From Bacteroidales bacterium Bact_19 (lineage in GTDB: Bacteria; Bacteroidota; Bacteroidia; Bacteroidales; ML635J-15): a stretch of DNA of 34,923 nucleotides. The stretch spans positions 1 through 34,923 of the forward strand of contig LUZK01000001.1 of assembly GCA_001603595.1 (NCBI GenBank), in the 5' to 3' direction. The notes beneath the pieces are model-generated. The model was given only the letters and a program-made list of their open reading frames with translations. It was not told where the DNA came from and made no database searches. Each line of letters begins with the position of its first letter. Position 1 is the stretch's first letter. Made by a program: the position numbers and the translations under genes. This document shows, piece after piece, positions 13,531 through 16,968 of this stretch.

Positions 13531-14523
13531 ATGTCATCTGAAGTTTACGATAAAAGGCTTGTTAATCTTTATTCTTCTGTATTGGAGGTTACACATTGTC
13601 CTTATTGTAACAGTACAAAGTTTTATCGTCATGGGAGGTATAAATATACAGAAAGGTACAGATGTTGCAGTTGTAAAAGGACTTTTATTCCAAGTACCGG
13701 GACAACAATACATTATTTGTAGAAAAAAGTTATTTTTATCGAGTATGCTGAAGATATTAAAAATAGAGGTTTAGATACACTCCGTGCAATGTGTGAGAGA
13801 TTAAAAATTGCTCCACTAACAGCATTTGACTGGAGACATAAAATATTGGCCTCGCTTTCTCCCGAAGAATTTACATTTGGTAGAGAGGTTATTTGTGATG
13901 ATTTGTGGTTACGATTTAGTCGTAAGGGTAGGAAAGGAGTTGAAAATCCCCGAAAGCACGGAGGTAAAATTACTCTTGCCGATGATAAAAATTGTTCTAA
14001 AACCGTAACATCAACCGATGAAACAGCATCAATGTTTAGACTTGCAACAGTAGGTAAGCTACGGGAAAAACATTTGTTGAAGGTGCTTTGCGGAAGGATA
14101 AAACCGGAAAGTAAAATCATAAGTTCTTCGCGAAACTGTTATTTAGGTTTTGTTAAGAAAATGAGTCTTAATCATGACGATTTAAAGAATGCTAAGCAAA
14201 CTAAAAAAGCGATTAAGATAAATCGGTTTATTGGTATGAATAAAGATTTGAAGCTGTGGATAAATCATAAACTTTATGGGGTTTCGACAAAATATTTACA
14301 GCAGTATAATAATTTTTATTTATTTTCATTGTTTTGTCGATTTGATCCACTTGGAAAATACAGTTTGAACCTGAAGTTTGTCTGGCGGATATTTACTGAT
14401 ATGGAAAACATTTACAGAAATTTTATTACACAACAAACTACGGCTGTTTATTCAGCCCCAACAAAAAGAAAATGGAAAACAACTAACTTATATTTTATAA
14501 GAAATAATAATGTTCCTTATTAA
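13531..14523 (+). pseudogene. IS1595-family transposase, inactivated by an in-frame TAG and active-site loss
   Basis: A single reading frame runs from ATG 13531 to the stop at 14521-14523 with only one interruption, TAG at 13720-13722. The part before it is the N-terminal zinc ribbon (CPYCNSTKFYRHG...CCSCKRTF) followed by TGTTIH. The part after continues the family alignment: a helix-turn-helix ending TAFDWRHKIL, then CDDLWL at the first catalytic Asp, PRKHGGK, and YGVSTKYLQQY near the end. The second catalytic Asp, expected in a TDGHRSY-like motif, is replaced (ISSSRNCY). The His/Asn region reads MNKDLKLW instead of HSRLK. So it is not active regardless of the stop. A second product could start at ATG 13789. 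I found no terminal inverted repeats or target duplication in the flanks (13332-13530 and 14524-14555), and no passenger genes. Confidence 0.82.
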
Positions 14524-14555: not shown

Positions 14556-15920
14556 TTAATGTCCTGTTGTGAGAATTCCACCGTATGATTTTATAATTTC
14601 GATAGACTTTTTTACAATTTCATCAAGAAGTTCTTTCGATGTCGCTTCAGCAAGAAATCTTAAATATGGTTCAGTATTACTAGGTCTTATATTTAACCAC
14701 CAATCTTTGTATTCAATTCTGTAACCGTCGAAATCATAAAAGGCAGTTGGTTCTTCAATTGATTTAAAATAATTTATTACAGCATCCATTGCGATTTGTT
14801 TGTCGTCAATTTTAAAGTTTATTTCTCCCGAATTTTGATATTTTTTGATTCGATTAATTAATTCGGAAACTTTAATTCCTCGAGAATGAAATTTTGCAAC
14901 TACGTTTAAAATTAAAAGACAAGCTAATATTCCGGAATCTGAGTAGTAAAAGTCCCTGAAGTAATAATGTCCAGCTAGTTCACCACCGTAAATACCATCA
15001 ATTTCTTTAAGTTTTGTAGCAGCAAAAGCTCTCCCGACTCTCCACATTTCCATACTACTGCCAAATTGCTCAATGTATTCACCTACGGCTTTTGATGTTC
15101 TGATGTCTTGTATAACTTTTCCTTTAAGACCTTTTTCTTCCAAAAAGTAGTGTGCAAGAACAGCTATCATTAAGTCTGGTGAAATAAATTCAGCTTTTTC
15201 ATCAACAAACATTACACGATCAGCGTCTCCATCGAAGATTATTCCAATATCGGACTTGTTTTCAATCACATGTTTTTGAAGGTCCCGGATGTTTTCTGAT
15301 ACTAATGGATTAGCTTCGTGATTTGGGAATGTGCCGTCAAGTTCTTCGTAAAAATATTTTGGAGTTTTACCCAAGAGCTTTCTGATAAATAATCCGGCCA
15401 TTCCATTGCTGCAATCTATGCTTATATTTAATTTATTTATATCAGGCACATAATTTTTAAGAAAATTAATGTAATCTTCTCTAATATCGAAATCAATAAT
15501 TTTTCCTCTGATGTCTTTTGATTTAATTTCTTGAGATTCAACAAGTTTTTCAACTTGATTTAATCCGTTGTCATAACCTATTGGCTTGGCATCCTTACCT
15601 GAAACCTTTAATCCGTTGTATTCAGCAGGATTGTGTGAAGCAGTTATCATAACGGAAGCATCAAAGTCAAATTTTGCTGTTCCCCAGTAAATCATTGGAG
15701 TCGTACTTAAACCCGTATAATAAACATCACAACCTGCATCATTTATTCCTTTTAACAATGCTTCTTTTATTTCAGGGGAAGACACTCTTACGTCATTACC
15801 TACCAATATCTTTTTCGCATTTAGAATCTGTGGCAAAAAGAAACCAATTTTATAAACATCGTTTTTGTTAAAATCTTTGTTGTAAATACCTCTAATGTCA
15901 TATGCTTTAAATGCTTTCAT
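14556..15920 (-). CDS. manB: Phosphoglucomutase/phosphomannomutase (alpha-D-phosphohexomutase family)
   Basis: 454-residue cytoplasmic enzyme interconverting hexose 1- and 6-phosphates, feeding GDP-mannose or UDP-glucose sugars for surface polysaccharides. All four family motifs are present: phosphoserine loop ITASHNP with Ser95, metal loop FDGDADR, sugar-specificity loop GGELAGH, and phosphate-binding RPSNTEP near the C-terminus. The GELAGH variant, close to GEMSGH, belongs to the PMM/PGM dual-specificity subgroup, so I cannot say which sugar is preferred. Full length. It stands alone on the minus strand, with the transposase remnant 32 bases downstream. Confidence 0.92.
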   Translation of the reverse strand: MKAFKAYDIRGIYNKDFNKNDVYKIGFFLPQILNAKKILVGNDVRVSSPEIKEALLKGINDAGCDVYYTGLSTTPMIYWGTAKFDFDASVMITASHNPAEYNGLKVSGKDAKPIGYDNGLNQVEKLVESQEIKSKDIRGKIIDFDIREDYINFLKNYVPDINKLNISIDCSNGMAGLFIRKLLGKTPKYFYEELDGTFPNHEANPLVSENIRDLQKHVIENKSDIGIIFDGDADRVMFVDEKAEFISPDLMIAVLAHYFLEEKGLKGKVIQDIRTSKAVGEYIEQFGSSMEMWRVGRAFAATKLKEIDGIYGGELAGHYYFRDFYYSDSGILACLLILNVVAKFHSRGIKVSELINRIKKYQNSGEINFKIDDKQIAMDAVINYFKSIEEPTAFYDFDGYRIEYKDWWLNIRPSNTEPYLRFLAEATSKELLDEIVKKSIEIIKSYGGILTTGH

Positions 15921-15960: not shown

Positions 15961-15976
15961 AAAAAAATATTAATCA

Positions 15977-16066
15977 AAAAAAAGAAAGAGTTTGGGTTTG
16001 GTGCCCAAACTCTTTTTACTAACCCCAATCAACCATGAAAAAGAGAAAAGATAGAAATCAAATTTT
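15977..16066 (-). ncRNA. Candidate small RNA (orphan transcription unit of about 90 nt)
   Basis: On the minus strand a -7 box TACCTTTG (16080-16073) is followed by about 50 bases of pyrimidine-rich sequence. That contains CTCTTTTTCATGG and then GATTGGGGTTAG. A perfect 12-bp hairpin (16015-16004 with 15996-15985, 7-base loop) comes next, then a C and eight T. That is a complete promoter-body-terminator arrangement with no good ORF inside, in the middle of a 460-bp divergent intergenic region. The segment CTTTTTCAT is complementary to AUGAAAAAG, the start region of many exported-protein genes. The -33 element is weak. The alternative is a plus-strand leader with a 37-codon ORF starting at ATG 16035. 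No database comparison was possible. Confidence 0.45.
15984..16016. terminator. Perfect 12-bp hairpin terminator between divergent genes
   Basis: AAAGAGTTTGGG (15985-15996) pairs without mismatch with CCCAAACTCTTT (16004-16015) around a 7-base loop. On the minus strand it is followed by CTTTTTTTT, on the plus strand by five T, so the minus strand is the better terminator direction. No annotated gene ends here on either strand. Confidence 0.75.
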
Positions 16067-16072
16067 CTGTTA

Positions 16073-16080
16073 CAAAGGTA
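16073..16080 (-). promoter_or_regulatory. Candidate -7 box of the orphan minus-strand transcript
   Basis: Minus-strand TACCTTTG fits TAnnTTTG exactly and lies about 58 bases upstream of the 12-bp terminator hairpin. The -33 region is T-rich without a clear TTG. Confidence 0.45.
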
Positions 16081-16380: not shown

Positions 16381-16968
16381 ATGATAAAATACGACCTCGA
16401 TATATTGAAAATAATTTCTAATGACATTCCTCCAAAATGTGGAAGAATTTTAATATCAGAACCCTTATTATGTGATGATGTTTTTTCCCGCAGTGTTGTT
16501 TTACTTACTGATTATTTTAAAGATTCTTTTATGGGTTTGGTACTAAACAAACCTTATCAATTTAAGTTGCATGAAATGCTGGATGGTATAAATAATACAG
16601 AAATTCTTCTTTATAGCGGAGGCCCTGTTGATAGAGATATTTTGTACTTTTTACATAAATTTTCATTTATTGATGAAGCTGTTGAAATTATACCGGGATT
16701 ATTTTTAGGAGGAAATGTAGATCAAATTTTTGAATTAATTAATTCCGGAATGGCTAACAATTCTAATTTAAAAGCATTTGTTGGATGTTCGGGTTGGGCA
16801 CCAGGACAACTAGAAGAAGAGATTCTTTTTAATTCATGGCTTGTCGCCGAAACAAATATTGATTTTGTTTTCAACAATGATTCAGATTTATGGAAAAAAT
16901 CTTTGGATTTTGTTGATAGTAGGTATCAGATATGGAAACTTTTTCCAATAGATCCGGATTTGAATTAA
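16381..16968 (+). CDS. yqgE: YqgE/AlgH family protein (UPF0301)
   Basis: 195-residue cytoplasmic protein of the YqgE/AlgH family. Recognisable family features are GRILISEPLL near the N-terminus, FMGLVLNKP (about 50-58), YSGGPVDRD in the middle, and the signature FVGCSGWAPGQLEEEI. The molecular function is unsettled. AlgH was linked to alginate regulation in Pseudomonas. Full length for the family. Its stop codon overlaps the stop codon of the convergent divIC-like gene (16965-16968), so no room is left for a terminator and the two transcripts must overlap. Usually a single-copy core gene in Bacteroidota. Confidence 0.92.
   Translation: MIKYDLDILKIISNDIPPKCGRILISEPLLCDDVFSRSVVLLTDYFKDSFMGLVLNKPYQFKLHEMLDGINNTEILLYSGGPVDRDILYFLHKFSFIDEAVEIIPGLFLGGNVDQIFELINSGMANNSNLKAFVGCSGWAPGQLEEEILFNSWLVAETNIDFVFNNDSDLWKKSLDFVDSRYQIWKLFPIDPDLN

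Follow-up and report, generated by a model that had tools for sequence, protein, structure and literature searches.

Does the minus-strand DNA between an algH-like gene and a phosphoglucomutase/phosphomannomutase gene of Bacteroidales bacterium Bact_19 encode a small RNA (sRNA), and if so, to which family does it belong and which mRNAs might it act on? The locus lies in the first 34,923 nucleotides of contig LUZK01000001.1, and this whole stretch is called the window below. The first-pass annotation had proposed a complete small RNA gene here, possibly of an undescribed Bacteroidota family. The proposal was followed up by comparison with relatives, by searches with known RNA families and by pairing statistics.

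Architecture and conservation of the locus

The features of the locus were as follows.

16381..16968, plus strand: algH-like gene (DUF179; Pfam PF02622), the divergent neighbour, which adjoins the sRNA in 13/14 loci
16073..16080, minus strand: -7 promoter element TACCTTTG (TAnnTTTG), a sequence match; TWnnTTTG in relatives
15976..16067, minus strand: predicted sRNA of about 90 nt, its 5' end placed from the -7 box and its 3' end from the T tail
16019..16050, minus strand: conserved core CTTTTCTCTTTTTCATGGTTGATTGGGGTTAG, the complement of CTAACCCCAATCAACC-ATG-AAAAAGAGAAAAG, in which 23 positions are the same in all 27 copies
15985..16015, minus strand: intrinsic terminator hairpin with a perfect 12-bp stem and a loop of 7 nt; two-sided changes in 11/11 modelled pairs (30 sequences)
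15976..15984, minus strand: terminator tail of C and eight T (CTTTTTTTTG)
14556..15920, minus strand: phosphoglucomutase/phosphomannomutase gene, on the same strand as the sRNA unit and downstream of it

Both signals on which the annotation had relied were present: the box fitting TAnnTTTG at 16080-16073, and the perfect 12-bp hairpin at 16015-15985 with its T tail, separated from the box by a pyrimidine-rich body of about 57 nt. By itself, TAnnTTTG was a weak signal, with 33 minus-strand occurrences in the 35-kb window. The terminator was the sole perfect 12-bp stem (loop 3-8) on both strands of the window with at least seven T in the next nine bases, and 20 mononucleotide-shuffled windows, taken on one strand each, contained no such combination of stem and T tail. 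As a whole, the unit had an unremarkable folding energy (z -1.55, with 13/200 shuffles equally good), and therefore the sRNA claim is carried by the comparative evidence. As had been stated, the two neighbours point away from the locus. The unit nevertheless shares its strand with the gene at 15920-14556 and lies upstream of it, so that a leader of this gene needed to be excluded. The Rfam scan of the window gave no family at its gathering score, which supports the suggestion of an undescribed family, and no tRNA or tmRNA was found in the window. An IS1595-like transposase domain, slightly below the Pfam cut-off, was seen at 13789-14523 on the plus strand, between an S1-domain gene and the phosphomannomutase gene.

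The blastn search for relatives covered 61 genomes, and a covariance model built on 27 copies (R1) was searched over 297 genomes. Strong matches of 57.7-90.8 bits were obtained in 14 of the 31 listed genomes of the family, some of the 17 non-carrier genomes being incomplete. The carriers comprised 11/26 genomes of the genus, Bact_19 included, and 3/5 listed genomes that belong to other genera of the family. Two or three matches of at least 57 bits were found in eight of these 14 genomes. In seven of the eight, the two or three units stood in tandem within about 600 bases, and every unit ended in a terminator of its own. An exact-core scan of named genome contigs yielded 13 contigs, of which 11 were titled Bacteroidales, one Bacteroidota and one Marinilabiliales. 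No copy of the sRNA was found in plasmids by blastn, and the exact core was not found in viral contigs.

Weak R1 matches of 26.8-35.6 bits occurred in seven genomes of other families. Two of them (L118 near 1508 and L120 near 1502, both on the plus strand) had UUUUCAU, a GGUUAG stretch and then a terminator-like hairpin. The Bact_19 genome itself held one close copy and one diverged copy of 25.2 bits on its contig C53. This diverged paralog (L241:5886-5952, plus strand) carries TATCTTTG, with the core TTTTTCATGGTTATTGGGTTTTAG and its own terminator, and its counterpart in the relative G004 (L129) scored 30.8 bits.

Within the family, conservation was concentrated in the core: 23 columns were invariant over the 27 copies, which had been picked with up to two substitutions allowed in a 23-nt core probe, and the terminator sequence beneath was almost wholly changed. 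The terminators differed in sequence and kept their pairing, with 91.5% of cells paired in a model-guided alignment of 30 sequences. Their covariation score, 0.840, exceeded both the 0.291 of shuffles and the values obtained with slid partners (0.207 or less), in an alignment that was fitted to the structure and leans towards it. The annotation had named a lack of conservation of the body outside the hairpin as one outcome that would refute it, and the body proved to be conserved in those relatives that retain algH; together with the strong covariation of the terminator, this upholds the small RNA proposal. A further hairpin between promoter and core was predicted in many relatives (mean z -2.4 over 27 copies; in the median, 3/100 shuffles were equal), while the 5' fold of the window copy was within the range of its shuffles (37/100 equally good). 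Taken together, the locus is very likely a real, conserved small regulatory RNA gene.

The copies also differed in their promoters. TWnnTTTG was located 20-60 nt ahead of the core in 18/20 copies of classes A and B (core with GATTGGGG) and in 0/8 copies of class C (GATTAGGG), whereas TGCAAC-N15..18-GTT was found in 7/8 class C copies and in 1/20 of the others. The last array copy in L004, L005, L006, L008, L009, L010 and L012 was of class C, with TGCAAC-N15..18-GTT replacing the usual -7 box. This element in class C suggests a different sigma factor or activator.

Comparison with FopS and other RNA families

Among known sRNAs, FopS of Bacteroides thetaiotaomicron (Rfam RF04319) was the closest in anatomy to the algH-linked sRNA. 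The sections of PMC11697453 used here describe FopS as highly conserved within Bacteroidaceae, and report that FopS sRNAs bind susC-like mRNAs by pairing close to the start codon and block translation, and that the RRM protein RbpB binds FopS in vitro and antagonises it. Like FopS, the core of the present sRNA begins with UUUUUCAUGGU, the complement of ACCAUGAAAAA, and UUUUUCAUGGU, GAU and GGUUA follow in the same order, with the terminator directly after GGUUA. The TAnnTTTG promoter and the terminator placed right after the seed are also shared, as a likeness of sequence only, and both sRNAs have several copies per genome, some of them in tandem groups. Unlike FopS, only the first 11 nt (UUUUUCAUGGU) are identical to the R1' seed and the rest is largely different; the distal seed is UGAUUGGGGUUAGUA and not AUUAGAUUUAAGGUUAA; about 30 nt, predicted to form a hairpin in many relatives, separate promoter and core, compared with about 7 nt between the -7 box and the core in 28 FopS loci; and the unit is linked to algH.

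The model scores were low. Aligned over its full length, the FopS model gave the window unit 21.0 bits (E 0.14), below its gathering score of 56, and MIR405 (19.6 bits) and ncr1015 (19.5 bits) came near this value in the same scan. In another scan MicC reached 24.4 bits, above the 21 of FopS. MicC, ncr1015 and others were rejected as the identity of the unit, their scores being at chance level. No FopS match at E of 1 or below was obtained in six carrier loci, nor in six paralog or weak-hit loci. In the reverse test, R1 matched at the FopS unit in 23/29 FopS loci (of 30 fetched) with 10.6-21.1 bits, three of them at E <0.05. A tally of the FopS model over the family's genomes, which gives scores and no positions, had a best E of 2e-4 (G010), with the carriers G009, G018 and G020 at E 0.03-0.08. 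Over the order, the FopS model reached its gathering score or more in 47/297 genomes of at least 18 families, sometimes in tandem groups; examples among the order-level genomes were G247:C21:15920-16857 and G162:C1:3141137-3141708.

Since the model scores are weak, kinship with FopS rests on shared letters and layout more than on score. The algH-linked sRNA is treated as a family separate from FopS because it scores below the FopS gathering threshold, though its layout is FopS-like. The likeness could reflect common descent or convergence on the same kind of target, and each is possible.

GibS (Rfam RF04182) was also compared. It resembles the present sRNA in having a long single-stranded seed near the 5' end, which, according to the portion of PMC7366714 used here, pairs with start-codon regions. 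It differs in its length of 145 nt, its middle hairpins and its second seed, and its sole match was one of 18.8 bits on the opposite strand, compared with its score of 115 bits. No description of the present sRNA family appeared among the titles and abstract beginnings that the literature searches listed.

The core as complement of a start-codon context, and its possible targets

The core complements CTAACCCCAATCAACC-ATG-AAAAAGAG, a sequence made up of a start codon, the stretch upstream of it and MKK codons. In the Bact_19 genome, the 24-nt core complement with up to three mismatches occurred nowhere but at the sRNA locus, and a version with wobble gave eight sites, the sRNA locus included, against eight for the reversed control. 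The shorter AACCATGAAAAA was found at seven sites against none for its reversed control. Four of the seven were starts of ORFs of 155-380 aa, and the rest were the sRNA, the paralog and a coding stretch. A pattern match on contig C43 proved to be coding sequence. With up to two mismatches, AATYAAYYATGAAAAAG occurred 65 times against 38 in the control, the sRNA and paralog being included. Start-context sites numbered 49 against 19 control sites in the 11 carriers of the genus (sRNA loci removed) and 13 against 7 in its 15 non-carriers; an enrichment in carriers over non-carriers was not clearly seen. Two sites selected by pattern, in G003 and G024, stand before genes that, judged by eye, encode similar-looking products.

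Pairing with gene starts was compared with shuffled cores. For 67 gene starts sampled at random, the mean pairing of the core was better than that of 60/60 mononucleotide and 58/60 dinucleotide shuffles, but 17/60 shuffles in which UUUUUCAU was held fixed reached the real mean, and no duplex of -20 kcal/mol or better was found in this sample. The first target statistics had given 7/275 starts at -20 kcal/mol or better against 0.85 in shuffles, in a sample biased upward by its choice of contigs for pattern matches. When 10 of 290 starts were dropped from the picked sample, 4/280 starts stood at this level against 0.8-1.7, and 5/60 shuffles with UUUUUCAU fixed were equal. The general fit of the core to gene starts thus rests mainly on U5CAU, and beyond U5CAU, pairing with gene starts was not clearly above that of shuffles.

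The strongest of the 275 starts, in the sample picked partly for such matches, was the gene start at C70:12087, where 23 contiguous pairs with the core, three of them wobbles, extend across the start codon (-29.5 kcal/mol). Its product has a papain-like peptidase domain (PF00112) and, by eye, a lipoprotein signal. Judged by this predicted duplex, the papain-like secreted protease gene is a striking candidate target. In the close relative G004, a search allowing up to one mismatch did not show the C70 site.

SusC-type receptors, the kind of gene regulated by FopS, were considered and rejected as targets: over 19 loci, one of them without a start, the first start codons paired at -8.5 to -19.7 kcal/mol. 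Bact_19 had one SusC above the family cut-off, and its start, pairing at -15.9 kcal/mol, fell inside the spread of the other 18 loci. The starts of algH (12/14), of the phosphomannomutase gene and of one of two RRM genes were likewise rejected, with pairing no better than that of shuffles. Overall, the target evidence was mixed and mostly negative, and no conserved target was found.

Rival readings and the preferred interpretation

The main rival to pairing with start regions is a protein decoy, in which the core would be a binding site of an RRM protein, the sRNA would titrate that protein, and base pairing would be secondary. Pairing with varied targets would not seem to require a core as invariant as this one, a conserved target was not found, and the binding of FopS by RbpB in vitro (in the part of PMC11697453 used here) provides a precedent. 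In addition, an RRM_1 protein gene was present in 14/14 carriers against 3/17 non-carriers (Fisher 3.5e-6, a value that ignores shared ancestry). The three non-carriers with such genes speak against the decoy, as does the coincidence of the core with a start-codon complement, for which a protein site has no reason. The decoy is considered unlikely.

The association with algH raises a second alternative, namely that the sRNA locus regulates its divergent neighbour in cis. Among the 31 listed family genomes, algH was present in 14/14 carriers and 0/17 non-carriers (Fisher 3.8e-9, again ignoring shared ancestry), and it was the divergent neighbour in 13/14 loci, one of which has only a partial algH on its contig. 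The linkage is not absolute, because the sRNA and algH lie on different contigs in G011; moreover, G009 has a further copy elsewhere than algH. The pairing of the core with 12 of the 14 algH starts was matched by at least 22/200 shuffled cores. A cis-acting role is improbable, and shared ancestry may be the cause of the co-occurrence of carriers with both algH and RRM genes. In other families, no FopS-like unit of core and terminator was found within 500 bases upstream of algH in 16 loci, which were fetched out of 24 algH matches in the order.

The orientation of the unit left a further alternative, an attenuator: a 5' leader in which a conditional terminator would control the phosphoglucomutase gene, which lies on the same strand with its start codon 55 nt from the T tail. 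Among the loci of the 14 carriers, this gene was directly downstream only in Bact_19 and G004, and it has its own TATTTTTG box at 15960-15953. In the 13 named contigs, the next downstream ORF was convergent in eight and co-directional in five, by mechanical ORF calls of at least 70 aa. With a downstream gene that differs between loci and is mostly convergent (8/13 named contigs), the unit is not a general leader; the tandem arrays of two or three separately terminated units in seven carriers also argue against it. A conserved co-directional downstream gene was not found, and the leader, which we regard as very improbable, was rejected on synteny. A very short peptide gene is hardly credible: the core holds ATG GTT GAT TGG GGT TAG (MVDWG), with the frame intact in class A and B copies, but the frame ends after MVD in class C copies and encodes MVIGF in the second paralog, and conservation runs past the frame on both sides.

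The reading that we prefer, and hold to be somewhat probable, is a stand-alone, lineage-specific, FopS-like sRNA gene that acts in trans by pairing with the start-codon regions of secreted-protein mRNAs. Comparison of the relatives establishes the promoter-like box, the invariant core, the covarying terminator, the several copies in many relatives and the fixed place beside algH. As the best available inference on its mode of action, the core UUCUCUUUUUCAUGGUUGAUUGGGGUUAGUA would pair with mRNAs around their translation starts where these resemble AAUCAACYAUGAAAAAG, chiefly in mRNAs of secreted proteins beginning MKK, and would block the ribosome there. The sRNA may be modulated by an RbpB-type RRM protein; an RRM_1 protein is present in all 14 carriers.

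A wider and more doubtful possibility is that start-codon mimics form one order-wide class in Bacteroidales, of which FopS and the algH-linked sRNA would be two lineages. The U5CAUGGU half would then be kept as a universal key for mRNAs with MKK-type signal peptides, and the distal half would drift to fit the upstream context of each lineage. Tandem copies of the present family with a near-identical core and different promoters (TWnnTTTG or TGCAAC-N-GTT) might in this way put separate signals onto one seed.

The Bacteroidota sRNAs found by the literature searches come from gut Bacteroides. The present family supplies a defined core, a neighbour gene and a candidate target for testing. The occurrence of a second family of start-codon mimics in Bacteroidales that are uncultured and in part environmental suggests that the order may generally place secreted-protein mRNAs under broad antisense control.
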